DNA from: Phycisphaerales bacterium
GTDB taxonomy: Bacteria; Planctomycetota; Phycisphaerae; Phycisphaerales; UBA1924
Assembly (NCBI GenBank): GCA_013360675.1
Contig: JABWBB010000002.1
Coordinates: 62,001-126,000, forward strand
Length of the DNA stretch: 64,000 nt
Direction: 5' to 3'
The notes beneath the pieces were generated by a model that was not told the DNA's origin, did not search any database, and worked only from the letters and a program-made list of their open reading frames with translations. Below, piece by piece: positions 5,312-54,756 of this stretch (position 1 is its first letter; every line of letters begins with the position of its first letter). The position numbers and the translations under genes are program-made.

Positions 5312-5326
5312 TTGTGGCCCCGGTAT

Positions 5327-5390: not shown

Positions 5391-5442
5391 GCCGGGTGTG
5401 TGGGGATGGGCCGAGTGGCCCGACCCACCCGGAGTATCTTCG

Positions 5443-5637: not shown

Positions 5638-5882
5638 ACGGCGCACGCTCCACAACTTCCGGCACGTCTGACGCGACGATAAACACCAATACGACGGCCC
5701 CGCTGTCCCTTCGACCTAAAGACGCGGCGAAGGCCCTGGGCATCGGGCAACGCAAACTGTGGGAACTCACCCACCCGCGCGGCCCGATCCCGTGCGTGCG
5801 CGTCGGCTGTTGTGTGCTGTACCCATATCACCTGCTGCAAGGGTGGTTGGCCGATCAGGCAGCGAAGGGGGGCGCACTTTGA
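5634..5882 (+). CDS. Second small helix-turn-helix protein (HTH_17-like)
   Basis: This 82-residue product starts at GTG in a GTGA overlap with the gene before. After a low-complexity Thr/Ser N-terminus, residues about 22-75 read LSLRPKDAAKALGIGQRKLWEL and then a wing ending in YPYHLLQGWLAD, the pattern of excisionase-type HTH_17 domains. Two such proteins in tandem are frequent in planctomycete and actinobacterial integrative elements, where one acts as recombination directionality factor and the other as regulator. Assigning which is which is not possible here. Confidence 0.7.
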   Translation: MNGARSTTSGTSDATINTNTTAPLSLRPKDAAKALGIGQRKLWELTHPRGPIPCVRVGCCVLYPYHLLQGWLADQAAKGGAL

Positions 5883-9215: not shown

Positions 9216-9339
9216 TCAACTGTCGCGGCTGCTGAGCGGTGAACGCGGGATGACAACGGACACGATCGAACGGCTGGCGGACTACCTGGGGTTGCGAATC
9301 ACGATCGAACCCAAGGGCAAGACCACGAAGGGACGGTGA
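9124..9339 (+). CDS. XRE-family helix-turn-helix regulator
   Basis: A 71-residue Cro/C1-type domain. The start ATG 9124 is chosen because the homology starts there. IAAAVKASDQTPYAIAKGAG, VARSQLSRLLSGERG and DTIERLADYLGLRITI give the five-helix pattern. It ends 3 bases before the integrase and is probably translated with it. In elements of this type such proteins set the balance between integration and excision or repress the operon. It overlaps the end of the preceding frame by about 90 bases. Confidence 0.75.
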   Translation: MGQLTKAIAAAVKASDQTPYAIAKGAGVARSQLSRLLSGERGMTTDTIERLADYLGLRITIEPKGKTTKGR

Positions 9340-9342
9340 CGT

Positions 9343-10683: not shown

Positions 10684-10694
10684 GCTAACTGCCC
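10622..10694 (-). tRNA. tRNA-Phe (anticodon GAA)
   Basis: On the minus strand the 73 bases fold as a tRNA: acceptor GGGCAGT pairs with ACTGCCC, the D-arm reads TAGCTCAGTTGGTAGAGCA, the anticodon stem CCGCA/TGCGG holds the loop TTGAAAA (anticodon GAA), and the T-arm contains GGTTCAAGTCC. The discriminator base is A and CCA is not encoded. It is the integration site of the element to its left, which has replaced its 3' end without altering it. Confidence 0.95.
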
Positions 10695-10730
10695 GGCACG
10701 CGAGCCCTCGGGCGGCCGCGATCAGGCACT

Positions 10731-10758
10731 AGGGTAGCCCGCGGCGCGGGCGGGTCAA
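10731..10758 (-). promoter_or_regulatory. Probable promoter of tRNA-Phe
   Basis: On the minus strand TTGACC (10758-10753) and TACCCT (10736-10731) are 16 bases apart, and the tRNA begins about 36 bases after the -10 box. The match to sigma-70 consensus is moderate, but position and spacing fit. Confidence 0.45.
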
Positions 10759-10984
10759 GGTTGCGGGGGGCACGGGTCGGCGTGGGATCGAAACGGCTTG
10801 AATTCCGCCACGGGCATGGCTCGGATCGGGTAGGCTGGCGGCCCGCATCGGCGTGGTACTCGATTCGGGCGGCACGGGCCCAGACAATCTCGGCGCGAAC
10901 TTTCTGCATCGCTTGCGAGCATTTCGTTTCACCAGATCATTGCCGGGCTTGATCCGATTTCCCGGCTCTTTGAGAGGATTCATC

Positions 10985-13900: not shown

Positions 13901-14374
13901 CTGAACGCGAAGTTTGCCTTCGAGCGTGATCTGACCGATCTGCAGCGGGCCATCGGCGGGGCCGGGCGTCTGGTGGACGAGGCCCTCAACCGCATCAATC
14001 ACCTGCGCGCGGGCGTGAGTGATACGCCCGGGCTCGATGCGGCTGTGCTCGCCGAGATCGACGCCCTTCGACTGCGGGCGACGGACATCCGAAACGCGTT
14101 GCGTGGCGATCCGACGCTGGGCAAACGCGTGGTGCCCGAGCCGCCCTCGATCGGCGAGCGCGTTTCGAACGCCATCTACAGCCTGTCGGGCTCGACCGAG
14201 CCGCCGACAAAGACGCAGCGCGAGCAGTACGAAATCGCGGGACGCGAGTTTGAGACTGCCCTGGCCTCGCTCAAGGCCCTCGTGCAGACGGACCTGCCCG
14301 CGCTCGAGTCACGCCTCGAAAAGGCCGGCATGCCCTGGACGCCCGGGCGCGTGCCCGAGTGGAAGCGGAAGTAA
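10985..14374 (+). CDS. Secreted VPS10/BNR-repeat beta-propeller protein
   Basis: A 1129-residue exoprotein. The start ATG 10985 has GAGAGG just upstream and opens a signal sequence (MRALMLMLALAGCSALAQ); LAGC could be a lipobox, although the n-region is short. A Pro/Glu/Lys-rich linker follows. From about residue 75 many Asp-box (S-T-D-x-G-x-T-W) blades appear, such as STDRGETW and SDDRGVTW, as in sialidase/sortilin-like propellers. The last 250 residues form a separate region with beta and helical parts. Planctomycetes carry many such WD40/YVTN/BNR-like proteins of unknown ligand; glycan or protein binding is plausible, enzyme activity unproven. It is monocistronic. Confidence 0.8.
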   Translation: MRALMLMLALAGCSALAQDAPGTKPVEPPETKAQGDQPKGDAEQAAAQPTDPDKPGEAKDGEVKEPEKPSLKAGTFGALSARCIGPALFSGRVADIAVNPRDPSEFYIAVASGGMWKTTNAGVTFSPIMDSSGSYSFGCVTIDPHDPNVVWVGSGENNSQRSVGFGDGVYVSRDAGKNFTNVGLKESEHIGRIVVDPRDSRVVYAAAHGPLWRTGGERGLYKTNDGGATWERILHIDDDTGVNEVHIDPGNPDVLYASSYQRRRHVWTLINGGPGSGVHKSTDAGKTWRKIEKGLPGVDKGKIGLCVAPANPEVLYAIVEAANGEGGVFRSTDRGETWEKRSSYVSNSPQYYNELIPDPTNADRIFSMDTFMHVSDDGGKSFSRVPMPDVHVDSHALWIDPRDTRHMIQGNDGGLYETFDGTNWRHVTNLPVMQFYRVAVDNAAPFYNVYGGTQDNSTLGGPSRTFDRMGIANEDWFLVVGGDGFEPAIDPEDHNIVYGQWQHAGLVRMDRRTGEIVDIKPREREGDAPFVWNWDSALIISPHNPARLYFGSRVLHRSDDRGDSWTTVSPDLTRGVDRNALPVMGVIQKPDAVAKHMSTSIYGNIVSLTESPLAEGLIYVGTDDGLVQVTEDAGKTWRKVESFPGVPAGAYVSELEACRHNASTVFACFDHHKSGDFTPYVLRSDDRGVTWHSIAGDLGPREVCYSIAQDHVNPSLLFIGTEFGAYFSLDAGAKWFKMAGVPTIAVRDVEIQRRENDVVMATFGRGFYVLDDYTPLRTIDAGMLDQEVTMFAPREALRYVPRSRVGGSAGRGWLGATHYAAKNPPMGAVFTYYLKEKITSRKERRKEAEKKEGWEYPTIEQFRAEDREDEPKVILTILDAQGKSIRRLNVPRGEGMHRVSWNLRYPDADPVSLSAGSIEPWDVEFGGTLAKPGTYGAVLSKVVDGVSTDIAGPIPVEVKAVDLSPRTAKGDGLNAKFAFERDLTDLQRAIGGAGRLVDEALNRINHLRAGVSDTPGLDAAVLAEIDALRLRATDIRNALRGDPTLGKRVVPEPPSIGERVSNAIYSLSGSTEPPTKTQREQYEIAGREFETALASLKALVQTDLPALESRLEKAGMPWTPGRVPEWKRK

Positions 14375-14407
14375 CCCGTCCTTCTGCGCCGTCCAGCTTC
14401 CGGTTTG

Positions 14408-15013
14408 CTACCGGCGCGGGGGCGGGTCGGGGCTGGGGAACGCGGCCGATGCAGGCTCGACCGTCGTGAGGCGGTCGAGCAGCGGCTCGATCGCGGCGTC
14501 AAAGACCACCGCCGTGCGGTGGTTCAGCCGCAGGAACTTCTCCTGCTCGACGTGATCGAGAAAGGTCATCAGGCTGTCGTAATAGCCCGCGGTGTTGAGC
14601 AGCCCCACGGGCTTGGCGTGGATGCCCAGTTGGGCCCACGCCAGGATCTCGAACATCTCGTCGAGCGTTCCCAGCCCGCCGGGCAGCGCGATGAAGGCGT
14701 CGGCAAGTTCGGCCATCATCATCTTGCGCTCGTGCATGGTCTCGACCACGCGCAGGTCGGTGATTCCCGTGTGACCCAGTTCACGGTCTTCGAGCAGCCG
14801 CGTGATGACGCCCACAACCTTGCCATCGCCCGCGAGGGCCCCGTCGGCGACGGCTCCCATCAGCCCGGCGCGTCCGCCCCCATACACCAGCGTAATCCCG
14901 CGCTGCGCGAGAAGTTGCCCCAGCGAAAAAGCCTGGGCGGCGTAATCAGGCCTGCCCCCGTGGCACGCGCCGCAGAAGACAGCGATGGACTTGATCTGGC
15001 GTGCGTGTCCCAT
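14408..15013 (-). CDS. LOG-family protein (nucleoside monophosphate phosphoribohydrolase-like, TIGR00730)
   Basis: A 201-residue Rossmann-fold protein with the family signature PGGLGTLDE (PGGxGTxxE) and the N-terminal nucleotide-binding segment GGGRAGLMGAVADGAL. Members cleave AMP or cytokinin riboside monophosphates to base plus ribose 5-phosphate. I take the ATG at 15013; a TTG at 15034 would add seven residues. It is convergent with the propeller gene, 33 bases away, and lies 69 bases after the small protein of the cytochrome operon. It may be co-transcribed with that operon but need not share its role. Confidence 0.85.
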   Translation of the reverse strand: MGHARQIKSIAVFCGACHGGRPDYAAQAFSLGQLLAQRGITLVYGGGRAGLMGAVADGALAGDGKVVGVITRLLEDRELGHTGITDLRVVETMHERKMMMAELADAFIALPGGLGTLDEMFEILAWAQLGIHAKPVGLLNTAGYYDSLMTFLDHVEQEKFLRLNHRTAVVFDAAIEPLLDRLTTVEPASAAFPSPDPPPRR

Positions 15014-41355: not shown

Positions 41356-41497
41356 CACACTGTCATTGATGGCATTCAGGGTGTGTCAGGATTACTTATT
41401 GGGCCAGTTTTCTGGTCAATAACACCAGTTGGTCCATACTCAGAGTGTATGAAGCCGTGCGGCTTCGTCGGTGATGCAATGCTCGTGGAGTACGTCG

Positions 41498-42292
41498 ATG
41501 CGTGCCAAGTTGATCGGAATGGCGCTGATTGTTCTTGCCGGGTCTGTGGCTCAGGCCCAGCCCTACACGTTCGGCGGGATTCCCGCCGGGGGCGGTGGGT
41601 GGACTTGGAATCAGAGCGGGATGCTCGGATTCAGATCGGCCCTCACCAACCCCGCCAACTTTGGGCCCGCGGGGGTCGTCGGCACGAGCGTGGCTACGGT
41701 GTCGATCCCATCGATCTCCGCGGCAAACCTGGCGACAATCGACTGCTTCGTAGCGCCCGCGAACCACGATTCGGCGTACATCCCCGCGGACATCGTGGCG
41801 ATCACCGCGTGGTTCATGGCCGGGGGCGACCTTCTGCTTTTGAACGATGGCGCGGATTACGACATGATCGCCTCGAGCCTGGGCGTACCGACGCAAGGGA
41901 CCGGGGGGGCACAGACGATTGGCGTGGGGCCTGTCGGATTCACAGGGCCTTTCGGTAATGTGAACGCCATCAACAACTCCGGTTTGATCGGTACGTTGAA
42001 TCCGATTAACGTGGCCAGCACGGGCGGGCAGGTGATGGGGACCAATGGCGGCGCTCCTTCCGTCGCCTTCTGGGACCGGGGGGCCTTTGGCCCGAACTCG
42101 GGGCGCATGATCATCGTCTGCGATGTAGACGCGATCGCCACCAACGTCGGTTACCCGGGCCAGGCCGATTACGCGGCGATGAACGCCAACGCGATCTTCG
42201 CACTTAACGTGGCGGCCGCGTTCGTCCCGACCCCGGGCAGCCTGTCGCTTCTCGGTGTGGCGAGTCTTGCGGCGCTGCGTCGTCGACGGTGA
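41498..42292 (+). CDS. Secreted protein with PEP-CTERM-like sorting signal
   Basis: A 264-residue exoprotein. ATG 41498 follows GGAG, and MRAKLIGMALIVLAGSVAQA is the signal peptide. The mature domain of about 215 residues is beta-rich and Gly/Asn-rich without Cys pairs. The C-terminus reads PTPGSLSLLGVASLAALRRRR, a PEP-CTERM-like tripartite signal (PxP-like motif, hydrophobic helix, Arg cluster) usually processed by an exosortase. It therefore probably reaches the envelope or matrix. No exosortase is in this window. It is followed by a bidirectional terminator shared with frr. Confidence 0.8.
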   Translation: MRAKLIGMALIVLAGSVAQAQPYTFGGIPAGGGGWTWNQSGMLGFRSALTNPANFGPAGVVGTSVATVSIPSISAANLATIDCFVAPANHDSAYIPADIVAITAWFMAGGDLLLLNDGADYDMIASSLGVPTQGTGGAQTIGVGPVGFTGPFGNVNAINNSGLIGTLNPINVASTGGQVMGTNGGAPSVAFWDRGAFGPNSGRMIIVCDVDAIATNVGYPGQADYAAMNANAIFALNVAAAFVPTPGSLSLLGVASLAALRRRR

Positions 42293-42440: not shown

Positions 42441-43013
42441 TCAGATCGTCATGATCTCTTTGCACTTTTCTTCGACGCGCTGATCGACGTCGGCCTCATA
42501 CTTCTTGAGCAGGTCCTGGACCTCGGTCTTGAGGGTCTCGATCTCGTCCTCGGAGTACTGCTTGGCGGTGCTCTTGGAGAGGGCGTCGGCGTGCTTGTTC
42601 CCGTCGCGCCGGGCATTGCGAATGACGACCTTGGCCTCTTCACCCAGTTTCTTGCAGCGGGCGGCGTCTTTCTGGCGGCGTTCCTGCGTCATCGAGGGGA
42701 TCTGCAGGCGGATCTGCTTGGCCTCGACGATCGGGTTGATCGACAGGCCGGACTTCTCGATGGCGGTCTTGATCGCTCCGATGGTCTGCGGATCGAAGGG
42801 CTTGATGAGCAGTTGGGTCGGCTCGGGGACCATGATGGCGGCGAGCGACTTGAGGTCGGTCTGTGAGCCATAGGCCTCGACCTTGAGGAACTCGACCATG
42901 GCGGGCGTGGCCCGACCGGTGCGCATGCCGCGCAGTTCGTGCTTGAGGTAATCGATGGCCTTGATCATGCCCTCTTCGGTTTCCAACAGGATGGTGTCTG
43001 GATCGGTGCTCAT
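42441..43013 (-). CDS. frr: Ribosome recycling factor
   Basis: A 190-residue RRF of usual size. Family motifs are KAIDYLKHELRGMRTGRATP near the N-terminus (the RTGRA segment), and the hinge domain has PFDPQTIGAIKTAIEKSGL and IPSMTQERRQ. The C-terminal helix ends with VEEKCKEIMTI. With EF-G it splits post-termination ribosomes. It lies 92 bases after pyrH, the usual bacterial order. Confidence 0.95.
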   Translation of the reverse strand: MSTDPDTILLETEEGMIKAIDYLKHELRGMRTGRATPAMVEFLKVEAYGSQTDLKSLAAIMVPEPTQLLIKPFDPQTIGAIKTAIEKSGLSINPIVEAKQIRLQIPSMTQERRQKDAARCKKLGEEAKVVIRNARRDGNKHADALSKSTAKQYSEDEIETLKTEVQDLLKKYEADVDQRVEEKCKEIMTI

Positions 43014-43105
43014 GGCTGCTCCGGGTGGGTTGAGGGTCGATTTGATGGTACGGCGTGGGTTGTGGTGGGGCGAGCCGCAACCCTTGGCACGGGCGGCGGT
43101 AGACG

Positions 43106-43885
43106 TCAGGACGAATGAAGCAGCGTACCGATGCGTTCACCCCTGATCACGCGGGCGATGTTGCCGCGTTTCTTGAAGTCGAAAACCACGACGGGCAGGT
43201 GATGCTCCGAGCACATGGCCAGTGCGGTCATGTCCATGACGCGCAGGCGCTGGTTGATCGCGTCGGTAAAGGAGATGGCGTCGTAGCGGACGGCGTCGGG
43301 GTGCTTCTTGGGGTCGGCCGAATAGACCCCGTCGACCTTCGTCGCCTTGAGGAGGACCTCGCACTCGAGCTCGGTCGCGCGAAGGGCGGCGCAGGTGTCG
43401 GTCGTGAAGAAGGGGTTGCCCGTGCCCGCGGCGAGGATGACCACCCGCCCCTTCTCCATGTGACGCAGGGCCCGCCCGCGGATGAACGGCTCGGCCACGG
43501 CACGGATCTCGATCGCCGACATGACGCGGCAATCCACCCCGATGGCGCGAAGCTCTTCCTTCAAGGCGAGCGCGTTGATAACGGTGCCCAGCATGCCCAT
43601 GTGGTCTGCCGTGGCCTGGGGGATGTGCCCGCTCGAGGCCATCTCGGCGCCGCGGATGATGTTCCCGCCGCCCACCACGATCGCGACCTGGGCCTTGGCG
43701 GCGAGGGCGTCCTTGATTTCCGAAGCGATGATCGCCAGTTCAGCCGGATCAATCCCGAAGTGCCCCGACTGCGCAAAGGATTCGCCGCTGAGCTTGAGCA
43801 GGACCCTCGTATAGGGCTTGTCCGGGCGGGAATCACCTCTGGCGGGCTGGGGGGAAGACTTGGAGGCGGCCGAGGGCGTGGGCAT
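43106..43885 (-). CDS. pyrH: Uridylate kinase
   Basis: A 259-residue UMP kinase of the amino-acid kinase fold. ATG 43885 is chosen; a longer frame begins far upstream without homology. Motifs are LLKLSGESF near 28-36, VVGGGNIIRG near 70-79, ADHMGMLGTVINA near 90-102, and TKVDGVYSADP near 183-193. The first 25 residues are a Ser/Pro-rich extension. It phosphorylates UMP to UDP, regulated by GTP and UTP in the family. It is followed by frr in the same direction; tsf is not next to it. Confidence 0.95.
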   Translation of the reverse strand: MPTPSAASKSSPQPARGDSRPDKPYTRVLLKLSGESFAQSGHFGIDPAELAIIASEIKDALAAKAQVAIVVGGGNIIRGAEMASSGHIPQATADHMGMLGTVINALALKEELRAIGVDCRVMSAIEIRAVAEPFIRGRALRHMEKGRVVILAAGTGNPFFTTDTCAALRATELECEVLLKATKVDGVYSADPKKHPDAVRYDAISFTDAINQRLRVMDMTALAMCSEHHLPVVVFDFKKRGNIARVIRGERIGTLLHSS

Positions 43886-44090
43886 GGGCTGATCCTGTGC
43901 GGGCTGGCGATGCTGGACAAGGGTGTCCGGGCAAGGATACATCGCCCGGAGTGCCCGAGAGAGACTCAACCCCCAATCTCTCTGATGCGTAGAACTGGAT
44001 TGCCTGAGCGACACATCCACCCCTTCACAGGCGTGCAGGCAGGGGCGGAATAACCGATACTGGCGTGGCCCAACGGAGTGAGCAGCGCTG

Positions 44091-45038
44091 ATGGACGCGG
44101 GGACAACACAGACTCATCGCCCAGCCTCGTGGCGCGATCTGTTCATCCGCTCGGCGACATGGGCGGCGGTGATCGCCTTTGCCATTTCAGGGTTACTCCA
44201 TCTGGGCGGGGCGATGGTGTCGCGGTATGTCCTGATCGGTGGCGGTGGCGATTGGGGGCTGGCGGGCGACGATCGCCCGGTCGAGATGGCCATCATGACC
44301 GAGGGCGAGCTCGCCGCGATGCTGGGGGAGGCCACGGTCGATGCGCTCGCCCCCGCAGTGCCCGACGTCGACATGGTCTCGCCCGACCCTACCGACCTGA
44401 TGGGCGACGGGCCAGGCGGTGACCTCAACGATTCATTCGAACTAGGAGCCGTCGGCAGCGGCGGTGGCGGTGGCGATATCGCCGGCGATGGGCTGGGTGG
44501 GCTTGGTGCGGGGGGGGGCGGCGGGGGCGGTGGTGCACGGTTCTTCGGCGTCGAGGCCCAGGGGAATCGTTTCGCCTACATCGTGGACATCTCGGAATCC
44601 ATGGAAGGGCCCCGGATCGCCGCTCTCAAGCAGGAGTTGCAACGGTCGGTCGATCGCCTGCTCGAATCGTCGCAGTTCCTGGTGGTGCTGTATTCGACCG
44701 AGGCTGCGCTGCTGGGACGGCGAGGAACCTGGACCGAGGCCTCGGTGGGGGGCAAGCGCTGGGCGCAGACGCACATCCGCGAGATCGATTCGACCGGCGC
44801 GACCAATCCGCTGCCGGCCTTTCAGATCGTCTTTGGCACTCGACCTCGCCCTGATGCGATCTATTTCATGACGGACGGAGAGTTCGCGGCGAATGTCGTC
44901 GACGAAGTCGCCATCCTCAACAAACAACTCAAGATCCCCGTCCACTGCATCTGCTTTGGGAGCAGCGACGGCGAGGCGCTGATGAAGCAGTTGGCCAAGC
45001 AGAGCCGAGGCACGTACACGTTCATCCCGGGGCCATGA
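44091..45038 (+). CDS. Single-span protein with von Willebrand factor A domain, TonB-like layout
   Basis: A 315-residue protein. One N-terminal transmembrane helix (about 24-45, ATWAAVIAFAISGLLHLGGA) is followed by a long acidic and Gly-rich linker (about 60-160), then a VWA domain from about 160 with the MIDAS motif in YIVDISESM (DxSxS) and YFMTDGEFA near 262. The layout of helix, flexible linker and extracytoplasmic domain resembles TonB. It opens an eight-gene operon with ExbB and two ExbD, so it is likely the moving partner of that motor. The VWA domain would bind a protein through a metal ion. Role unproven. Confidence 0.75.
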   Translation: MDAGTTQTHRPASWRDLFIRSATWAAVIAFAISGLLHLGGAMVSRYVLIGGGGDWGLAGDDRPVEMAIMTEGELAAMLGEATVDALAPAVPDVDMVSPDPTDLMGDGPGGDLNDSFELGAVGSGGGGGDIAGDGLGGLGAGGGGGGGGARFFGVEAQGNRFAYIVDISESMEGPRIAALKQELQRSVDRLLESSQFLVVLYSTEAALLGRRGTWTEASVGGKRWAQTHIREIDSTGATNPLPAFQIVFGTRPRPDAIYFMTDGEFAANVVDEVAILNKQLKIPVHCICFGSSDGEALMKQLAKQSRGTYTFIPGP

Positions 45039-45039
45039 G

Positions 45040-46155
45040 TTGAACCCACTGGCTTGGACATGCTGTTGTCTGCTCGCGATGTGCTCGCCAGTGTGGGCTC
45101 AGAGCACGCTGGTCATGCGTGGCCATGAGCCTGCGCCGACAGGCGAGGTCGTTGGCGTCGAGGCGCAGGGGGTGCGGCTCGAAGGCGAAGGCCTGATCGG
45201 CTGGGACAAAGTCCGCCGCGTCTCGGGGCCGCTCGAAGCGCAGGCGGCCCGGTTCGCCCAGCTCGCGGATCTGGCCTGGCGTGCGAGAGCGAGGCTCGAA
45301 CGGGGTGATCTGGTCAGCGCCGAACCGCTGCTCGAGGATTTGGCCACGCGCGTGGGGTCTGAAGTGGGCCCGACCTCGCGGCTGGTATTCGCGGGGCTGG
45401 TGCGTTGCCGCTTGGGGCGCGGGGCGGTGATCGCGGCGGCTCCGGCCTATCTGTCTTGGCATCAGGCGTCGGGCGGAGATGCGAGGTATGCGGGCGAGGC
45501 GTCGTGGGCGGTGACGAGCCCGACGGAAGTCGGCCTGATCGACGCGGGGACGCTGCTGGCACCGGGCCTGCCGCCGATGTGGGTGGGGTCGCCCGCGCTG
45601 CAGTCGCTGGCGCGTCAGGAGTGGCCCAAGACAGGTGTCGGAATTCTGTACGAACAGGCCGCGCGGTACGAGGCGGGGCTGGCGGCGATTCTGCCGCGAC
45701 GTGTCACGTCGCACCGTTCGGATGCAGAACGGGCCGGGTATGACCTGGTGTACGCCGTGGTGGCATCGCGCATCGGCGATGAGATGGAACGAGCGGCCGC
45801 GCGTGAGGAACTGGTGCGAGAGATCGACCAGCAGCCGGAGTGGGCGCGGGCGTGGCGTTGGGCCGCCCTGGGACGATCGTTGCTGCGCGAAAGCGACGAC
45901 GAGCAGCGCTGGCGCGGCGTGGCGGAACTGCTCCGCGTGCCGGCGGAGGTCGAGCGTGTGGTGCCGTATGTGACGGGGCTGGCGATGGGCGAGGCGGCCA
46001 GCGCGCTGCGTGAACTGGGCGATGGCATGGGCGCAGCGCAGATCGCGGGCGAGATCGTCGAGCGTTTCCCGGGGCATCCGGTGCTCGACTGGCAGGGTGT
46101 GCGAGGGATACAGCGACCGGCGCCGGCAGGCAGCGCCAAGGAGGGTTCGTCGTGA
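45040..46155 (+). CDS. Secreted protein of unknown function in ExbB/ExbD operon
   Basis: A 371-residue protein read from TTG 45040, one base after the previous stop. A signal sequence (PLAWTCCCLLAMCSPVWAQ) is evident. The first 60 mature residues form a small beta domain (GEVVGVEAQGVRLEGEGLIG). The rest is alpha-helical repeat with Arg- and Ala-rich helices, like TPR or Sel1 arrays, without recognisable catalysis. I do not recognise a family. It overlaps exbB by 4 bases, so co-translation with the motor genes is expected. Confidence 0.65.
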   Translation: MNPLAWTCCCLLAMCSPVWAQSTLVMRGHEPAPTGEVVGVEAQGVRLEGEGLIGWDKVRRVSGPLEAQAARFAQLADLAWRARARLERGDLVSAEPLLEDLATRVGSEVGPTSRLVFAGLVRCRLGRGAVIAAAPAYLSWHQASGGDARYAGEASWAVTSPTEVGLIDAGTLLAPGLPPMWVGSPALQSLARQEWPKTGVGILYEQAARYEAGLAAILPRRVTSHRSDAERAGYDLVYAVVASRIGDEMERAAAREELVREIDQQPEWARAWRWAALGRSLLRESDDEQRWRGVAELLRVPAEVERVVPYVTGLAMGEAASALRELGDGMGAAQIAGEIVERFPGHPVLDWQGVRGIQRPAPAGSAKEGSS

Positions 46156-46925
46156 TGGATTCGGCATGGATGGCGATGCTTGCGGATGACACCGGGTCGA
46201 CCAAGACCCTGCTCGAGTACATCCAGGCGGGCGGGAAACTCGGCTATGTGCTGGTAGGGCTGTCGTTCGTCGCGCTGGGGCTGACGATCCTGCACTTCAT
46301 CAAGATCAGGCCGTCGCAGCTGGCGCCTGAAGATGCGGTGACCGAGATCGAGCGGCTGCTGCGCGCGGGGGATATCGACGGGGCCACGCGATACTGCCGC
46401 GCCGACGAGCGGGGGAGTTTCCTCACGCGGGTGATGGGGCAGGCGCTGGCTCGGTGCTCACGTTCGAGTTTCGGGCTGCTCGAGATGCGGTCTGCGCTCG
46501 AGGAAGCAGGCGGGAAGGAACTCGACCGCCTTCATCGCACGACCGACAGCATCGGGCTGATCGCGGCAGTGGGCCCGATGCTGGGGCTGCTGGGCACCGT
46601 CTTTGGCATGATCGGCGCGTTCGGCAGCATCAGCGCGCTTGAAGGGGCGGCCCGCTCGCGCGAACTGGCCGGTTTCATGGCGCTGGCGCTGATCAACACG
46701 GCGCAGGGCCTGGCCGTGGCGATCCCCTGCACCGTGCTCTTCGCCGTCTTCAAGCGGCGGATCGACACCATGGCGGGCGATGTCGCGGTGACGATCGATG
46801 ATCTGGCCGGGCTGCTCGAGGGCAAGGAGGCCAAGCCCGAGGCGGCCCCACGCCCGGTGCGGCCGGTGGCGCGTCCGGCGCCGAGCGTGCCCGCGGCGGA
46901 TGCCACGCGGAGGGCCCAGCCGTGA
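46152..46925 (+). CDS. exbB: ExbB/TolQ/MotA-family proton channel subunit
   Basis: A 257-residue inner-membrane protein. A first helix lies near 31-50 (GYVLVGLSFVALGLTILHFI), a cytoplasmic region follows, and two further helices are near 136-160 and 180-205, including AVGPMLGLLGTVFGMIGAFG, the conserved MotA/TolQ/ExbB signature. AAGGAGG precedes the GTG at 46152 (ATG 46155 is equally possible). ExbB forms a pentameric proton channel with ExbD and drives TonB-like proteins. The C-terminus is a Pro/Ala-rich tail. Here it sits in the VWA operon. Confidence 0.85.
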   Translation: MMDSAWMAMLADDTGSTKTLLEYIQAGGKLGYVLVGLSFVALGLTILHFIKIRPSQLAPEDAVTEIERLLRAGDIDGATRYCRADERGSFLTRVMGQALARCSRSSFGLLEMRSALEEAGGKELDRLHRTTDSIGLIAAVGPMLGLLGTVFGMIGAFGSISALEGAARSRELAGFMALALINTAQGLAVAIPCTVLFAVFKRRIDTMAGDVAVTIDDLAGLLEGKEAKPEAAPRPVRPVARPAPSVPAADATRRAQP

Positions 46926-47344
46926 GGCTCAATCGCCCGCGTGAACTCGCCGAGGCTCCCTTCGACCTCACGCCGATGGTGGACGTGGTGCTGCTGCTGA
47001 TCATTTTCTTCATGTTGTCGGCGCAGTTTGCCGAGACCTTCGGCTCGCCCATGAACCTGCCCGGAGAGAAGGGCGAGAACCGCGCCAAACCCGAGCAATC
47101 CATCGTGGTCGACCTCACACGCGAAGGGATCGTGATGGTCGGTGGGCAGCAGGTTCCGGTGGACCGACTTGCACTGCTGGTCGCGGCGGACATCCAGAGT
47201 TTCACGACGAAGCGTCAGACCTGGGAACTGGTCGTGCGTGCGGATCGAGACTGTCCCGGCTCGCACCTGAACCGACTTGCGGCGACGCTCGCGGCGGTGG
47301 GGGTGCGTTCGTGGAAGCTCGCCGTCGCAGGAGAGGGAACATGA
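46922..47344 (+). CDS. exbD: ExbD/TolR-family protein, first copy
   Basis: A 140-residue protein with GTG start overlapping exbB (GTGA). One transmembrane helix (about 18-38) follows FDLTPMVDVVLLLIIFFMLS, with the proton-carrying Asp in the MVDVV motif. The periplasmic part has the usual strand-helix pattern. The stop overlaps the next start. With ExbB it forms the proton-driven motor. A basic start (RLNRPRELAEA) precedes the helix as in the family. Confidence 0.85.
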   Translation: MRLNRPRELAEAPFDLTPMVDVVLLLIIFFMLSAQFAETFGSPMNLPGEKGENRAKPEQSIVVDLTREGIVMVGGQQVPVDRLALLVAADIQSFTTKRQTWELVVRADRDCPGSHLNRLAATLAAVGVRSWKLAVAGEGT

Positions 47345-47760
47345 GGTTCCGACGCCCGCAGCGCAAGGGGCTGGCGAAACTCCCGCGATTGCCGCTGGTG
47401 GCGTTTATCGATGTCGTGCTGTTCCTGCTGCTCTACTTCCTGATGGGCTCGCAGTTCGCGGCGCCCGAGTCGCGCCTGGAAGCCGCGCTGCGCACCGAGT
47501 CCAAGGGCGGTTCCTCGGGTTCCGACTTGGTGCCGCTAGTGCTGCGGATCACCAATGAGAAGGGGACGGTCACCTACACGCTGGGCGAGCGGGTGATGAC
47601 GGATCGGGCCGCGCTGTCGCTGGTCTGCACGCAGATGCCCAAGGGTGGCGGGATTGTGGTGCGGCTGGCATCCGATGCGCCGGTGTGGGCCGCGGCACTG
47701 GCGCTCCAGGTTGCCCGCGACGCGGGCTTTGAAAAGGTCAGTTATGTGCCGGCTTCGTAG
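47341..47760 (+). CDS. exbD: ExbD/TolR-family protein, second copy
   Basis: A 139-residue protein; ATG 47341 overlaps the previous stop (ATGA). The helix includes PLVAFIDVVLFLLLYFLM, with Asp in the same place as in the first copy. The periplasmic domain is only weakly similar to it. Two different ExbD beside one ExbB suggest a heteromeric motor, as proposed for some planctomycete and bacteroidete systems. The last 17 bases overlap the next gene. Confidence 0.8.
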   Translation: MRFRRPQRKGLAKLPRLPLVAFIDVVLFLLLYFLMGSQFAAPESRLEAALRTESKGGSSGSDLVPLVLRITNEKGTVTYTLGERVMTDRAALSLVCTQMPKGGGIVVRLASDAPVWAAALALQVARDAGFEKVSYVPAS

Positions 47761-50410
47761 GTTGTTCCTGATCATGGTCGCGGCGGTGGCGACGCTCACG
47801 CCGGCGGTCTGCGCCCAGGCCTCGAGGAGCGATGCCCTCGAGACCTATCTGGCGTCACGGTCGCTCGATGGTGCGCTGGCCGCCCACCTGCGATCAAGGC
47901 TGGCGGCTACATCGGGCGATGAGCGCAGCCGGACGGCTGAAACGCTGGGAGCGCTCTACGTGCGGATGCTCGAGCGGGCATCGACCAGCGACGAACGACA
48001 ATCGCTCGAAACGCATTGCCGATCGCTGCTCGAGATCGTGCCCGAGGCCGACTCGTTCGAGCTGCGGATCAACCTGGCGAAGACGACGTATCTGCAGGCC
48101 GAGGAGATGGCCGAGCGTGAGCGGCTGCTGCTGGCCAGCTCCGAAGAAAAGGCCGAGGCGGAGCGCGTGCTTCGACAGGTGGGCGAGACGCTCGAATCGA
48201 TCGCGGCCAAGGTGGGACGGCGCGTCGAGGCGCTCGAAAGGCAGGAGACATCGGCGCGGGATACGGACATCGAGGCGATCCGCCTGCAGCTGGGCGACGC
48301 CCGGCGACTGCGATCGCTGGCCCGCTATTACGCCGGCTGGACCGAGTATTACCTCGCGCTGCTCACCGGCACGCCACAACGCTGCGTCAAGGCGATGGAG
48401 CACTTTGGTGTCATCCTCGGCGCGCCTTCCGGTCGTGCGGCGACGCTGGATCGTGCCTCGCAAGGGATGCTCCGGTACGAGCACGTGGCGCGGGCGGCGA
48501 TTGGTTGTGCACTCGCCTCAAGCCTGCTGGGGAATGATTCCGAGGCCATCCGCTGGATCGAGGCGGTCGAATACGCCGAGGGGCTCTCCCCAGCGGTCGC
48601 CTCGCAGATCTTCGGGCGCAAGATCACGATCTATGGCGCGGCCCGTCGCTGGGCCGACGTTGAGGCGGCGGTTCGTCGCCAGCGGGAACCCGAGCGCGGC
48701 AAGCCAATCGTCCATTTGAACGTGGGCGAGGCGAGGCTGCTGGCCGTGACCACGCTCGGGGCCTCTCGCAAGGACCAGGACCGCCCGATGCTGCGTGAAG
48801 CCGCGGGGCGTCTGGCACAGATCGCCTTCGCGGACCTGGTGGCCAAGGGCGAGATCGGGCACGTGGTGGACCTGGTGCAGAAGTTTGGCACAATGCCGCT
48901 GGGAGATGAAGGCTTTATCACCGCCTTTGTGCGCGGAGTGCAGGCGTTCGAGAAGGCGCGAGAAGCGCACAAGGCATCGGGGAAAGATCCCGAGGCCCCC
49001 GCGGACTCAACCGAACTGATCAACGACTATCGCGAGGCGGCTCGACTTCTGGCGGGGGTGGAGTCGGCGTCGGACGCGGCGGCCTTCGCGGGCGAGTTGG
49101 GCAAGGCACGGATCCGTCGTGGGTTGGCGTTGTATTACGCCGGCGATCTCGAGAAGGCCGCCGAGCAGTTCCAGTCCGCGGCTCAGCCACCGGCGTCGTC
49201 AGATTTGCGCCGTGATGCGCTCTGGTACGGGATCGTGTCGTTGGACCTTGGGGTCGAGCGGGGCAAACCCTCGTTGAGCGTGGCGCGCGACGGGCTGGCG
49301 ATGGTGTATCTGAAGGAGTTTCCGGCGACGCCCAACGCGGCCAAGTTGCTGCTTCGCCAGACCGGGGCCGATCTGGTGCCCGACGAAAAGGCCATCGAGA
49401 TTCTACTGGGGATCGAGAAATCGGCGCCCATCTACGAGGCGGCACGACGCCAGGCGGCACGCCTGCTGTATGGGGCGTATCGACGATCGCCCCCGAGCCG
49501 TAGGGACTTTGCGGCGCTGCGCTTTGCCGAAGTGGCCGAAGAAGCCCTGCAACTGGAAGCGGCCCGAGCGCTCACGCCCGCGGACCCCGGGGCGAAGGAC
49601 GCCGCCGACGCGGTGGTGGTCCGGGTGCGTCAGCTTGCCGACGCGCTGCTGGGGATGAGCGCGCCCGACGTGGCTCGTGTGCAGAACGCGTTCCACGTGC
49701 TCGAAGGCGTGGCACACGCGCATAGCCTGGATCTGGCCTCGCTGGCGGGAGAGTTGGCGTATCGACGCCTGCAGATCGGCCTGGCCACCAGCGATGAAGC
49801 CCTGGTGCGACGGAGCGAGGATGAACTCCTCTCGGCCAGCGGGCCATACGTGATCGCGGCGGATCGGCTGCTCTTCCGGCGTGCAAGCGAGCGTTTCGCG
49901 CTCAACCCGGGGGATGCGGAATGGGCCAAGCGGGTGGTGCGCTATGGCGTGCGCGTGCTCGACGCCGCCAAGAACGCCATGGAATCTCCCGATGCCACCA
50001 GTGCCGCGCTTCGCAATGGCGTTTCCCGAGCCGCCGCGGCACTCTGGAACACCGAGCAGGACACCACCATGCGCGATCTGTGCCTGCGACTGGAAAAGGC
50101 CCAGATCGCGGCGGGCCTTCGCACCGCCGAGGGGCTGCGTCGCTTGGCGGAGATGGCCGACACGGCGGGAGAAGAGTCCGTCGCGCTCGATGCATGGCGT
50201 GAACTGAGCGTGGGGCTTGAACCTACGAGCGAGGCATGGTTCGAGGCAAGGTATCACTCGCTGCGTCTGCTGGCGGCGGTCGACCCTGTCAAGGCCCGCG
50301 AGGGGATGCTTCAGCACAAGGTGCTCTACCCAAGTTTCGGGCCCGAACCTTGGGGTTCGTTGCTTCGTGACTTAGATGCGGCCATGGCTACGCCGGGGGG
50401 GACGAAATGA
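47744..50410 (+). CDS. Large secreted helical-repeat (TPR-like) protein
   Basis: An 888-residue protein. ATG 47744 follows AAAAGG; its first residues (CRLRRLFLIMVAAVATLTPA) are a signal sequence ending near AQA. The rest is nearly all alpha-helix in pairs of about 34 residues, for example EIGHVVDLVQKFGTMPLGDE and GLALYYAGDLEKAAEQFQSA, the look of TPR arrays. There is no catalytic motif. It overlaps the second exbD by 17 bases and the next gene by 4. It probably acts as a periplasmic scaffold around the motor. The overlapping start implies translational coupling. Confidence 0.7.
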   Translation: MCRLRRLFLIMVAAVATLTPAVCAQASRSDALETYLASRSLDGALAAHLRSRLAATSGDERSRTAETLGALYVRMLERASTSDERQSLETHCRSLLEIVPEADSFELRINLAKTTYLQAEEMAERERLLLASSEEKAEAERVLRQVGETLESIAAKVGRRVEALERQETSARDTDIEAIRLQLGDARRLRSLARYYAGWTEYYLALLTGTPQRCVKAMEHFGVILGAPSGRAATLDRASQGMLRYEHVARAAIGCALASSLLGNDSEAIRWIEAVEYAEGLSPAVASQIFGRKITIYGAARRWADVEAAVRRQREPERGKPIVHLNVGEARLLAVTTLGASRKDQDRPMLREAAGRLAQIAFADLVAKGEIGHVVDLVQKFGTMPLGDEGFITAFVRGVQAFEKAREAHKASGKDPEAPADSTELINDYREAARLLAGVESASDAAAFAGELGKARIRRGLALYYAGDLEKAAEQFQSAAQPPASSDLRRDALWYGIVSLDLGVERGKPSLSVARDGLAMVYLKEFPATPNAAKLLLRQTGADLVPDEKAIEILLGIEKSAPIYEAARRQAARLLYGAYRRSPPSRRDFAALRFAEVAEEALQLEAARALTPADPGAKDAADAVVVRVRQLADALLGMSAPDVARVQNAFHVLEGVAHAHSLDLASLAGELAYRRLQIGLATSDEALVRRSEDELLSASGPYVIAADRLLFRRASERFALNPGDAEWAKRVVRYGVRVLDAAKNAMESPDATSAALRNGVSRAAAALWNTEQDTTMRDLCLRLEKAQIAAGLRTAEGLRRLAEMADTAGEESVALDAWRELSVGLEPTSEAWFEARYHSLRLLAAVDPVKAREGMLQHKVLYPSFGPEPWGSLLRDLDAAMATPGGTK

Positions 50411-53301
50411 ATCCCGATCCGGTGCTCGACAAACTCGGCATTCCCCTCGATGCCCCGGCGCATGACGTGCTCGGGATCGAACCGGCAACGAACAGCCCTG
50501 ACGCCGTGCTCGCCGCTCTGCGCGAGCGGCTGCGTCGCGTGAACGAGATCGCCGGAGCGGGGGGCATCAATGCCGATGCGGCCCGCGTGGTGCTGCACGA
50601 CGCTGCGGGAGCAATCCTCTCGGCGATCGAACGAGCCCAAGAAACTCCTGCATCGCACCAACAACCCACTCCGGCGACGGTCACGCCAAGGCAACCTCCC
50701 AAGGCACAAGCCGTCTCCGGCACGCTGGAACAGTTTGAGTCGCAGGTTCGCATGGCCCTGGCGAAGTATGGGGGGTGGAATCGAGAATCATCCACGTGGA
50801 TTGGGATGCTCGCTCGACGCCACGGGGTCAACGAGGAAACACTGGCCGCCACCGTGGCCAGGTTCACGGGGAGTGACCCTTCACACGCCGCGGCGACTCA
50901 GATTCCGACCCGTACGCCGATGCTCGATCCGGAAGTGGACCAACTCGCGCTGAGACGGGCGGCTCGCCATCCGCCTTCTCGACCGGGCGATCAGGCGGTC
51001 TTCGCGGGGATCGATGAGGAGCCCACCCCGCGGCAGCCATCCCTGTGGACGCCGATCCTTGTGCTGATGGCTGTGGTGGGTGTCGGGGTGGCCGTCATCG
51101 TGGCGACGGTGATGCTGATCATCGGGCTGGGATCACAGAATCAGGCAACACCCACCTCGGGCGACGAGGTCGTGGCGCAGGCCCCGCCGACACCAATCAC
51201 AGCACCCGAGCAATTCTTCCCCGCACCACGGGAGGAGAGGACGCCGGCGACGCAATCACAGGCCGGTTCCTCGCGTCCCAGCGAATGGGCCGATGTTTTG
51301 CGCGACATGTCGCGAAGCGGTTCGGCGATGAATGCCGACCCCGATGCCGCGCATGCCGAGTTTCTGAATGTCATGTCTCAGATGGCTCGTCGGTGGCCCG
51401 AAGCGGGGAGCGATGGCGTGCTGGCCGGGGTCAACGGGGTGATCGACTATCTGTATCGGGTCGCGTCGCGGCAGGACCTGGCGATGAGCCTGATCGACGC
51501 ACTCGCGCACGATGGCGGCCTTGTTGCGAAGGGAGATATTCCCACAGCCGACTCGCTTCCGGCCGCGGTCTGGGGGGCGGGGATGCTGGCCCGGCTGTCG
51601 CGCGAGCGCGAACTGGGCAGCGCCGCATCGCGACGCGTCAGCGACAGCGTGGCGCAGGTGCTTGGGGCTTCATTGCCGGCCAATGCCTCGTTCCAGAACG
51701 GTGCGGCGGCCGCGCTGGCCCGCCTGGGTGATCGCCTGATCCCCACCGCGCCAATGGACGAACCGGCCACCACCGCCATGCAGCGAGCGTGGAAGGCCTG
51801 GATCGCCTGCCTCGATGCGGTCGATCCGCCGGGGGGAAGCATCAACGAACGGACGAAGCTGCTCGCGCTGGAGAGGATCATGACGGACGGGCCCGACCCA
51901 ACCTACAGCCTGGCGACAGCGGACGCGATCCGCCAGATCACGCTCTCGCTGACTTGGCGGAGCGATGGGCAGGCCCGCGACACCTTGCTGCGATGGCTCG
52001 ATCTCGAGGCCATCGCCACGCCCGATCTCAATGTGCTGACCACGGCGCTAGGCACGCAATCGGGCGTGGAGGGGATCGATGTTTCGTTCGCGTTGTCATC
52101 CAAGGCCGGCTGGAGCCATCGCGTCGAGCTGCGCGATCGCCTCGCCACGCTGTGGGGCAGTGCGCCCGCGGTCTCGCGGAGCGAGCTGGTCACTCAGTGG
52201 TCGGTGAGCGTTCGCAACGTGCTGGGGGCCTATACCGAAGGCACATCACCCACGCAGCGATTGGCCCGGGCGGCCCGGCTCGCGCGGCTCAGTTCCACCG
52301 CGGCTCGTCTCTGGATTGGCGAAGCGGTTGGATCACGTGATCTGCAGGCCGATCTGGAATCGGATCTGGAGGCCAAGCTGCAGTCGGCCGCGGTCCAGCA
52401 GGCGACCTACACCATCGTGAAGACGGATAAGGCATGGGCCGGACGATACGCCGCGGCGGGACAGAGCATCACCACCAAGCGGGAGTTGTGGGCGCAGTTG
52501 AATGTTCCGCTGCACCCGGTCGAGGCCGAGATGGTCGCTGAGGACGCGGTGCGGGGCTCGCCATCGCAGCTCCGGGGCGAGGCGGTGGGCGTGGTGCAGC
52601 GGTTCGCCGCCGATCGGTCGATGATCAACGCGATGCTCGAACTCGTGCCGGTCATGCCCGCGACCAATGACTCGACACAGATGATTCAGCGTCTGACAGG
52701 ACAGACGCTGCCCGGCCCGCGCGAGCCTTCGTGGCGCCCCGAGTTGCGACGCGTGCTTGTCGAGCGATTGATCCTGGTCATCGCCGGTTCGGGCGAGCAG
52801 GGCGTGGCCGACCCCCTCTCCGAGGTGATCGCGCATGCATATCTGGCCTCGTCGCGTGCGGGTTCGGTAGCCAAGGCCGATCCGATCACCGATCCGCTCG
52901 ATCATGGTGATGCCGCAACGTCGGCGGCGAATCCCATGACACCTCCCGCCGATGAATGCGCGAGACAACTACGCGCACGCTGGGAGCAGGCGTCCGCATC
53001 GGCAGTGCCCGGCGGGAGAGAAGCCATCTCGGCGGCCCAGCTGAGTGTGCGGCGTGCGGCGCGCACCGGGCTCGCCTCGGGGCCGATCCAACGTTTTCAT
53101 GCCGAGCAGATCGGTATCGTCGAACTGATGGCGTATGTGATCGCCTCGGAACAGCCCTCGCGGGCGATGCAGGCGAGTGAGATTGTCACCGCCGCGCACG
53201 ACAAGCGTCGCCGGGCCAACCACATTCTCGAACAAGTGGAGATCGCCGAAGAGGCCATCGCGCGGCTGTGGCTGCTGAGGTTCGGGGAGGCCGTGCCATG
53301 A
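50407..53301 (+). CDS. Large membrane-anchored protein of unknown function
   Basis: A 964-residue protein. The first 80 residues (VLDKLGIPLDAPAHDVLGIE, then AALRERLRRVNEIAG) have the rhythm of a J-like helical domain but lack the HPD motif. A second small domain lies near 100-150, then a disordered segment. One transmembrane helix is near 214-237 (LWTPILVLMAVVGVGVAVIV). The remaining 700 residues are periplasmic by this reading and mostly helical. No family is recognised. A cytoplasmic sensor or chaperone-like head with a periplasmic arm would suit a motor-linked system. It overlaps the genes on both sides by 4 bases. Confidence 0.65.
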   Translation: MNPDPVLDKLGIPLDAPAHDVLGIEPATNSPDAVLAALRERLRRVNEIAGAGGINADAARVVLHDAAGAILSAIERAQETPASHQQPTPATVTPRQPPKAQAVSGTLEQFESQVRMALAKYGGWNRESSTWIGMLARRHGVNEETLAATVARFTGSDPSHAAATQIPTRTPMLDPEVDQLALRRAARHPPSRPGDQAVFAGIDEEPTPRQPSLWTPILVLMAVVGVGVAVIVATVMLIIGLGSQNQATPTSGDEVVAQAPPTPITAPEQFFPAPREERTPATQSQAGSSRPSEWADVLRDMSRSGSAMNADPDAAHAEFLNVMSQMARRWPEAGSDGVLAGVNGVIDYLYRVASRQDLAMSLIDALAHDGGLVAKGDIPTADSLPAAVWGAGMLARLSRERELGSAASRRVSDSVAQVLGASLPANASFQNGAAAALARLGDRLIPTAPMDEPATTAMQRAWKAWIACLDAVDPPGGSINERTKLLALERIMTDGPDPTYSLATADAIRQITLSLTWRSDGQARDTLLRWLDLEAIATPDLNVLTTALGTQSGVEGIDVSFALSSKAGWSHRVELRDRLATLWGSAPAVSRSELVTQWSVSVRNVLGAYTEGTSPTQRLARAARLARLSSTAARLWIGEAVGSRDLQADLESDLEAKLQSAAVQQATYTIVKTDKAWAGRYAAAGQSITTKRELWAQLNVPLHPVEAEMVAEDAVRGSPSQLRGEAVGVVQRFAADRSMINAMLELVPVMPATNDSTQMIQRLTGQTLPGPREPSWRPELRRVLVERLILVIAGSGEQGVADPLSEVIAHAYLASSRAGSVAKADPITDPLDHGDAATSAANPMTPPADECARQLRARWEQASASAVPGGREAISAAQLSVRRAARTGLASGPIQRFHAEQIGIVELMAYVIASEQPSRAMQASEIVTAAHDKRRRANHILEQVEIAEEAIARLWLLRFGEAVP

Positions 53302-54281
53302 TCCGCACCGCCATCGTCATCATCGCTGCCGCGATCAGCCAGCCGCCGGCAACGCCGCCGCGCTGGGAGGCTTTCGCCCCGCGCCTCGAGGCGCTGACGC
53401 CAGGCACGCCCGAGGCATACTTCCTGCTCGCGGAGGAGATCGGCGACGAGAGCAGCGATCCGACTCTGCGTCGCCTCGCCGAGCAACTCTTCGTCCTGGC
53501 CTTTGTGCTTGATCGCCAGCAGCCCGGTCGTGATGCGATCGCGGCCAGTTCATGCGTCGCGCTGGCCCACATGACCAGCGGCGATCAGCGCCGTCGTTGG
53601 CTCTACGCGGTTGCCAGAAAACTCGACGCCCGGCAGGGCGGGGCGGCGTGGCTTCACCAGCCCGCGGCGACGACGCAAGATTCCGCCGCCTATCAGGTCG
53701 CCACCCTTTTGGGCTATATCCGCGCCGGTCAAGGAGCGCAGGCTCGCCAGATGCTCTCGAAGCCGGAGGTCCGGGCCGCGATCAATACCTACGACCGATT
53801 GCTCACCATCGCGGGGATCAGCGGCACGCTCACGGGCCTCGAACGCCAGGCTGTTTCGTGGCCCTGCAACGAGTGCTCGAATCAGCGTGTCGTGCGCAAA
53901 CCCGGCGGTGCCCCCAACGAGTATCGCGTCTGCCCGACCTGCGACGGCAGCCCGGGGCCTCGATTAAGCGACAAGGACCTGCTCAACCAGCTGCGTCTCG
54001 AGTCATGGCTGCTTCAGGGCTCGACGACCTCCTGGTCCGCTCAACTCTGGATGGATTTTGGCGAGCCGCTCTTTGATCCTGAGCCCGACGACGTGCCCGT
54101 GGCCTTTGGGGTTGATCCCCGCCTGGTGTTGTGGCGTGATGGCGCATGGCACATGCCGCCCGAATCGCCCGTGCCTCCAGCCCCACCCAAGGCTGGCCCC
54201 CAACCCCAACCCCAACCTCAACTCAACGATCCGCCCGAGATCGGGCCTGAACCTGTCGTTCCTGAGGTTGGCGGCGGGTGA
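53298..54281 (+). CDS. Exported protein with zinc-ribbon-like cysteine group
   Basis: A 327-residue protein. ATG 53298 overlaps the previous stop. A short signal (MIRTAIVIIAAAISQPPA) is followed by helical repeats of about 160 residues. CNECSNQRVV and YRVCPTCDGS near 192-220 give four Cys like a DnaJ-type zinc ribbon. The C-terminal 50 residues are Pro/Gln-rich (PPAPPKAGPQPQPQPQ) and may span the envelope, as the Pro-rich linker of TonB does. It is the last gene of the ExbB operon. Function unknown. Confidence 0.65.
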   Translation: MIRTAIVIIAAAISQPPATPPRWEAFAPRLEALTPGTPEAYFLLAEEIGDESSDPTLRRLAEQLFVLAFVLDRQQPGRDAIAASSCVALAHMTSGDQRRRWLYAVARKLDARQGGAAWLHQPAATTQDSAAYQVATLLGYIRAGQGAQARQMLSKPEVRAAINTYDRLLTIAGISGTLTGLERQAVSWPCNECSNQRVVRKPGGAPNEYRVCPTCDGSPGPRLSDKDLLNQLRLESWLLQGSTTSWSAQLWMDFGEPLFDPEPDDVPVAFGVDPRLVLWRDGAWHMPPESPVPPAPPKAGPQPQPQPQLNDPPEIGPEPVVPEVGGG

Positions 54282-54327: not shown

Positions 54328-54756
54328 ATGTCCGACACCCCCACGCCGATCCCCGCCCAGCCGCCGGTCAAAGCCGCCCCTTCGATTCCCGCCACGCCGG
54401 AAGCCAAGCCCCAGATCACCTTTGAGCAGTTCGCCCAGGTTGATCTGCGCACCGCGACGATCCTCAAGTGCGAGCCGCACCCCAGCGCCGATCGCCTGTG
54501 GAAACTCCAGCTCGACGACGGATCGGGTACACCCCGCCAGATCTGCGCGGGCATCCGAGAGCAGTACACCCCCGAGCAACTCGTCGGCAAGACGATCGTG
54601 ATTGTCGCCAACCTGGCACCGCGCGTCATCCGTGGCGAGGAATCCCGTGGCATGCTCCTGGCGGCGAGCAACGCCCCGAAGGATGCGCAAGGCCCACGCA
54701 AGGTTGTCGTGCTGACCACCGCCGACGAGATCGGCCCGGGCGCGATCGTCTCCTGA
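54328..54756 (+). CDS. tRNA-binding domain protein (MetRS C-terminal/Trbp111-like)
   Basis: A 142-residue protein. ATG 54328 follows GAGGAG. After a Pro/Ala-rich start, an OB-fold from about 35 reads FEQFAQVDLRTATILKCEPH, PSADRLWKLQLD and RVIRGEESRGMLLAAS. This is the domain at the end of methionyl-tRNA synthetase and in stand-alone Trbp111/CsaA proteins that bind the tRNA elbow. It may serve a MetRS that lacks this part, or act as a chaperone. It lies 46 bases after the motor operon and may be transcribed with it. Confidence 0.85.
   Translation: MSDTPTPIPAQPPVKAAPSIPATPEAKPQITFEQFAQVDLRTATILKCEPHPSADRLWKLQLDDGSGTPRQICAGIREQYTPEQLVGKTIVIVANLAPRVIRGEESRGMLLAASNAPKDAQGPRKVVVLTTADEIGPGAIVS

Follow-up and report, generated by a model that had tools for sequence, protein, structure and literature searches.

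It is an open question how diderms in which neither TonB nor TolA/TolB can be recognised energise their outer membrane, and the locus described here poses it in concrete form. It lies in a 64-kb window (the whole stretch of DNA analysed, G000:C19:62001-126000) of a 2.92-Mb Phycisphaerales assembly. One ExbB homologue and two ExbD homologues are encoded there together with five further proteins, the first of which carries a VWA domain. What does a motor operon do in which a VWA protein occupies the position of TonB?

Composition of the operon and its products

The eight genes (g1 to g8) lie back to back on the forward strand at 44091-54281 and form an unbroken run. An earlier sequence-only reading had described eight genes with tight junctions, all of which were confirmed: a single base separates g1 from g2, 17 bases are shared by g5 and g6, and four-base overlaps join g2/g3, g3/g4, g4/g5, g6/g7 and g7/g8. 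The start of g6 was corrected to 47744. For g8, an ATG at 53298, which gives the four-base overlap, is more likely to be the start than a GTG at 53268. Pfam, NCBIfam and PADLOC scans returned nothing significant for g2, g6, g7 and g8 of the window, and the operon encodes no outer-membrane protein or lipoprotein.

Further genes flank the operon. frr and pyrH (42441-44020, reverse strand) are divergent from it, and a secreted protein with a PEP-CTERM-like tail (TPGSLSLLGVASLAALRRRR) is encoded at 41471-42292. Directly downstream, at 54328-54756, lies a gene for a stand-alone tRNA-binding domain protein that by eye is MetRS C-terminal/CsaA-like; a gene of this kind is found close to the operon in 14 of 40 relatives.

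g1 (44091-45038, forward strand) encodes the VWA protein, a putative force transducer of 315 aa. Its domain is detected by Pfam (VWA PF13768, 1.5e-11) and also by VWA matches in the PDB. The polypeptide begins with an N-in transmembrane helix, continues through a Gly/Asp-rich linker of about 110 aa (median of 40 sequences) and ends in the periplasmic VWA domain. Across the 30 columns of the helix region in these 40 sequences, Ser33 and His37 are the sole columns of zero entropy, and the rest varies. This Ser33-x3-His37 arrangement (44187-44201, forward strand; 40 of 40 sequences) is the motor-docking pair of TonB and TolA. According to the accessible text of a recent study (PMC12204202), a Ser-His-Leu-Ser (SHLS) motif is how TolA and TonB dock to their motors, and many members of a class of vWA force transducers carry it. 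The Leu of this motif is present in 19 of the 40 g1 sequences (the window has Ser), and its last Ser is not conserved. The alignment also contains a conserved VEFAV-like segment just after the helix; the same text gives a motor-box beta strand after the helix as a feature of the published class (PMC12204202).

The MIDAS of the VWA domain is intact. Its D-I-S-E-S motif (D166 to S170; 44586-44600, forward strand) follows the DxSxS pattern found in 40 of 40 sequences, and T238 and D262 are invariant in the alignment. The earlier placement of a VWA protein with an intact MIDAS in the TonB position is borne out, and the helix adds to it the invariant Ser-x3-His.

Three consecutive genes on the forward strand encode the motor subunits. 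g3 (46152-46925) is an ExbB/TolQ-like protein (MotA_ExbB PF01618, 5.2e-25) in which the canonical threonines, T149 and T183, are invariant across loci, and it forms its own clade in an ExbB tree. g4 (46922-47344; PF02472, 1.4e-18) and the more divergent g5 (47341-47760; PF02472, 7.3e-8) are the first and second ExbD/TolR-like subunits; they share 29% identity, and both keep the transmembrane Asp of ExbD. The components of a proton motor with one ExbB and two different ExbDs, as read from the window alone, are thus all present, and their functional positions are conserved.

g2 (45040-46155, forward strand, 371 aa) has a TTG start and encodes an exported protein with a signal peptide. Its AF2 model (mean pLDDT 92) consists of a small N-terminal beta domain of five short strands, followed by TPR-like helices. 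TPR proteins are among the top matches of a fold search, none of them significant, and homologues of g2 give weak TPR matches. g6 (47744-50410, forward strand) encodes a large exported helical TPR-like protein of 888 aa with a signal peptide and TPR matches. Homology of g6 to the TPR genes that lie by verrucomicrobial ExbB-ExbD-ExbD genes was considered and rejected, the match (~1e-6) covering only about 100 TPR residues.

g7 (50407-53301, forward strand, 964 aa) is predicted to be a bitopic protein. Its AF2 model, built from 19 sequences, contains in order a cytoplasmic three-helix head (50458-50643, forward strand), a second helical bundle, a disordered stretch and the membrane helix (residues 214-241; 51046-51129, forward strand), on which TM prediction agrees. 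Beyond the membrane helix, a disordered linker leads into a long periplasmic alpha-solenoid (pLDDT 77). A single TM is found in 37 of 41 g7 homologues. The sequence-only reading had seen a J-like head lacking HPD: the motif is indeed missing from the window protein, but the J resemblance in alignment and model is weak, and HPD is present in 6 of the 41 homologues. Identification of the head as DnaJ was not accepted, the best DnaJ match having an E-value of 0.18 in one of 19 members. When the models of g2 and g7 were submitted to fold searches, the likeness to TPR and HEAT/ARM solenoids was merely generic, with no E <1e-3; sequence searches of the PDB yielded no match for g7 or g8 and nothing convincing for g2.

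The last gene, g8 (53298-54281, forward strand), terminates the operon in every intact locus. From the alignment and its operon position, it encodes a small exported helical protein of 327 aa with a Pro/Gln-rich tail. In three loci (L111, L127 and L128) the C-terminus of g7 is fused to g8, and since g8 by itself is exported, this agrees with a periplasmic location of the g7 solenoid. The earlier description of a Cys4 exoprotein with a Pro/Gln tail fits the window, where a CxxC-x18-CxxC insert lies at 53865-53942 (forward strand). However, the Cys4 insert occurs in 16 of 36 homologues, and most of the aligned sequences from family f2 have lost it; it is lineage-restricted and so not part of the core.

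Conservation of the unit and mobility of its motor

Conservation of gene order across relatives had been set beforehand as a test, and the operon passed it. When 40 g6-bearing loci of the order, 12-19 kb each, were screened with an iterated profile for each of the eight proteins, the order 1-2-3-4-5-6-7-8 held in 36, including the three with g7-g8 fusions. The remaining four comprise three loci without g3-g5 (L097, L107 and L134) and one (L116) that ends at a contig edge upstream of the first ExbD. Across loci, a four-base overlap is the commonest junction for most neighbouring pairs, and identity to the window protein is only 17-33% for g7. That the same order and mostly four-base overlaps persist despite protein identities of 17-50% argues against chance.

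Of 201 genomes of the order, 121 were found to have g6, among them every one of the 68 that are listed for the family (f1) to which the window belongs. In a phylum-wide sample of 392 genomes the g7 profile matched 26, a count to be read with the caveat that MAG assemblies may hide genes. Weak g7 matches in families f30 and f71 were set aside, as no other operon gene was found there.

The complete unit also occurs outside the order. Another class has it in three genomes of family f73 (loci L189, L190 and L197), with all eight genes present, their order unchanged and their flanks different, so that the co-conserved operon unit, as originally read, extends from 36 of 40 order loci to another class. 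L189 and L190 fall inside the operon clade of the ExbB tree, beside f4 loci (support 0.84). This position suggests, with moderate support, that the entire cassette was transferred between classes. The VWA transducers of this other class lie at L189 3587-4834, L190 3731-4768 and L197 3309-4346; as read in L189, they have an N-terminal CxxC-CxxC zinc-ribbon-like cytoplasmic segment, which g1 of the window lacks.

These data bear on the possibility that the genes are merely co-inherited neighbours, with a motor that serves other transducers and unrelated TPR genes kept beside pyrH-frr by slow rearrangement. A pyrH neighbour was detected in 39 of the 40 loci and regional synteny is generally high, as such a history would predict. 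Yet neighbours on the downstream side are not conserved (found in 0 to 14 of 40 loci), and the cassette recurs in the other class with different flanks. The g7-g8 fusions, the translationally coupled junctions and the fact that only the motor block is seen leaving point the same way. We consider co-inheritance improbable, and chance neighbourhood was rejected on the recurrence with other flanks, the fusions and the coupled junctions.

A role in anti-phage defence was also weighed. Zorya uses a MotA/ExbB-like motor, and a Zorya-like system would share this component with the operon. PADLOC models, however, match none of the eight proteins, and the operon sits at a stable locus in all 68 listed own-family genomes, unlike defence islands. 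On these grounds defence was rejected as highly improbable.

Relatives of the transducer extend further than the full unit. Of 120 class genomes, 119 contain a match to a VWA profile derived from g1. Among 18 further VWA loci inspected in the class, 17 have the Ser-x3-His helix, which is likewise present in the other class. At most of these 18 loci ExbB lies directly after the VWA gene or about 1 kb off, although the flanks were short and ExbB was not always within reach. Families f5 and f6 of the order are without g6-g8, and one or two VWA genes precede exbB-exbD-exbD (L175-L178), indicating that some members can dispense with the accessory genes. In other class families, two VWA transducer genes stand in tandem at one motor, at L175 9654-11815, L178 9662-12090 and L227 1480-3807.

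The three loci without g3-g5, which belong to three genera (L097 in G083, L107 in G022 and L134 in G095), have the order 1-2-6-7-8. Exactly the motor genes are missing, g2 directly abuts g6, and g1 retains both its Ser/His pair and its MIDAS in all three. In G083, an operon-clade ExbB and two ExbDs are encoded on a separate contig (L165). The sole ExbB-type motors of G022 and G095 belong to a second, paralogous clade. G008 appears to represent a second relocation, with an operon lacking g3-g5 (L195) and the motor at L173. In L195, g2 and g6 are apparently fused in one open frame (10271-14524).

Retention of Ser/His in motor-less operons suggests that the motor is exchangeable or able to work in trans. 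The docking residues of the transducer would then stay under selection while the motor relocates, as a docking role predicts. G022 and G095 have no dedicated motor but retain the remaining five genes, and part of the system may work motor-free or borrow another motor.

The paralogous clade is that of L168 (G000:C64:16000-33000) in the window's own genome, where a second ExbB-ExbD-ExbD locus at 8237-9885 has no obvious transducer adjoining. L168 also encodes a subtilase-like protein (4954-8040, reverse strand) and a lectin-like protein (3912-4862). These two have in common a C-terminal repeat, ADFN-TPDDADV-FF-WN ending GC, that by appearance is dockerin-like or a sorting tail.

Relation to known motor-driven systems

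The motor and VWA core of the operon is already known. In 2025, VWA proteins of unknown function were described in the TonB/TolA position (Mol Biol Evol, msaf138, PMC12204202), and the accessible text of that paper names as their neighbours one TolQ-like gene, two TolR-like genes and one TPR gene. It reports the class also from Proteobacteria, Verrucomicrobia, Bacteroidetes and Rhodothermaota, with hosts that include PVC bacteria and some that are without TolA/TonB. As far as that text describes the class, the operon shares with it the Ser/His docking helix, a disordered linker of about 100 aa, the C-terminal VWA domain, a tolQ-like gene, two heterologous tolR-like genes and an adjoining TPR gene.

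The two differ in three respects, within the same text. The VWA gene comes first here and downstream of the motor there; four more families (g2, g7, g8 and the large g6) make up a fixed eight-gene unit here; and the motor block is detachable here. The accessible text contains no mention of g2, g7, g8, an eight-gene unit, a detachable motor, Phycisphaera or DnaJ. It also describes TPH-vWA pairs beside tolQ, which resemble the operon in having a membrane-tethered VWA adjoining a TolQ-like gene; in those pairs a VWA with a pore-inserting Asp helix replaces ExbD, whereas here there are two ExbDs and a Ser/His helix.

Two claims of the sequence-only reading are narrowed by this comparison. Of a force-transducing system, the motor-plus-VWA unit is supported, but its core is not new. 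As for a system peculiar to Planctomycetes, this phylum is to date the only one in which the complete eight-gene form has been seen, but the core class, by the accessible account, occurs elsewhere as well.

Components of the standard Ton and Tol systems were surveyed in 31 members of the family to which the window belongs. With models that may miss strongly diverged TonB, TolA or TolB homologues, TonB_C (PF03544) exceeded the cut-off in one of the 31 and not in the window's own genome, and for TolB neither TolB_N nor TIGR02800 (above cut-off) was found in any of the 31. A receptor plug domain was present in 5 of the 31 and OmpA/Pal-type domains in all 31; the operon itself contains none of the latter. 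The single plug domain of the window's own genome lies in L201 (G000:C17:90427-90750), though no TonB C-terminal domain was found in that genome. No TonB-dependent receptor is encoded in the operon, in keeping with the earlier view that none is near, and the rarity of plugs in the family suggests that none is needed. No standard Ton or Tol system is recognisable in the family, and the VWA protein is the one transducer found there with a docking signature.

Set beside Ton (TonB-ExbB-ExbD), the operon has the ExbB and ExbD homologues and the Ser-x3-His of the transducer helix, but it has two ExbDs, no TonB C-terminal domain and no receptor, in a family where plugs are rare. It resembles TolQ-TolR-TolA/TolB-Pal in its TolQ/TolR-like motor, its transducer topology and the TPR proteins nearby (cf. 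CpoB), and all sampled genomes have OmpA/Pal-type domains, away from the operon. Unlike Tol-Pal, the tip is a VWA domain, the TolA C-terminal domain was not found and the family is without TolB. Taken together, the near-absence of Ton and Tol, the peptidoglycan-binding proteins and the VWA transducer favour a housekeeping envelope role over nutrient import.

Import could nonetheless take another form, in which motor and VWA arm power the entry of large polymers as a TonB analogue without receptors. This would account for the way in which Planctomycetes take up dextran and GFP, a process sensitive to uncouplers: dextran reaches the periplasm only without CCCP, which abolishes its entry, and the energy-coupling protein was left unnamed (PMC5394234). 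The near-absence of TonB from the sampled family fits as well. Nevertheless, the operon is without an outer-membrane pore, a receptor or a carbohydrate enzyme, no more than 26 of the 392 phylum genomes yielded the system with g7, and uptake was shown for other planctomycetes, outside this order. We regard an uptake machine as unlikely. The main text of the Planctopirus essentiality study names no ExbB/TolQ gene. A link to the mucin-uptake locus of Akkermansia was weighed and not adopted.

In make-up, the closest analogue is the Agl-Glt core of Myxococcus (AglRQS-Glt/Nfs). Widely conserved, and with its genes grouped in a single region even in distantly related bacteria, this core combines one TolQ and two TolR with exported TPR proteins and a bitopic, TonB-like protein that has a cytosolic domain (PMC3169522). 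By this likeness the operon might encode a machine that travels along the envelope and serves in gliding, in adhesion to surfaces or in surface-layer export; a gliding role is also proposed by analogy in the accessible text of the authors of the VWA class (PMC12204202). However, the TonB C-terminal and FHA domains of the Agl-Glt transducer are missing from all eight products. A VWA domain replaces the TonB domain, the cytosolic head is J-like rather than FHA and sits on a separate protein (g7), and the operon encodes no outer-membrane barrel. A travelling machine of this type is possible, if doubtful.

A proposed force machine and its significance

The reading we prefer is that the operon probably encodes one trans-envelope, PMF-driven force machine with the VWA domain as its tip. 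In this machine, g3 would form a 5:2-type inner-membrane motor with the two ExbDs, g4 and g5. The g1 helix would dock at the ExbB side through Ser33/His37, like TonB and TolA, and the motor cycle would extend or pull the g1 linker of about 110 residues. The VWA-MIDAS could then grip a partner through a divalent metal, either in the periplasm or where the outer membrane faces inward. With their TPR-like folds, g2 and g6, together with g7 and g8, may act as a scaffold or clutch that passes on the force, and the g7 head may be a point of cytoplasmic regulation or anchoring. We infer assembly into a single complex, the direction of the force and the identity of the partner.

For the role of this machine, maintenance of envelope and outer membrane in the manner of Tol is the most likely candidate, tentatively held; it ranks ahead of Agl-Glt/Nfs-like surface machinery, which in turn ranks ahead of macromolecule uptake. 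A more far-reaching and rather doubtful proposal is that the VWA machine replaces both Ton and Tol in Phycisphaerae; its metal-dependent grip would convey proton-motive force to the outer membrane by way of a TPR/solenoid scaffold, and its motor block could be exchanged between the operon and other sites.

Beyond the published core, the new elements are the conserved eight-gene order, Ser33 and His37 as the sole invariants of the helix, the clean losses of the motor, a VWA relative in all but one of the 120 class genomes, and a family without TolB and nearly without TonB. Three uncharacterised families (g2, g7 and g8) can now be named as likely parts of a PMF machine. The natural variants, in which the motor is relocated, the motor is lost or g7 and g8 are fused, serve as genetic controls. 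For diderms of this kind, the operon is a tangible candidate that is present almost throughout the class and whose parts and invariant residues can be named. If the proposed replacement of Ton and Tol is true, a whole class would run its outer-membrane energetics on a transducer whose tip is unrelated to TonB or TolA.
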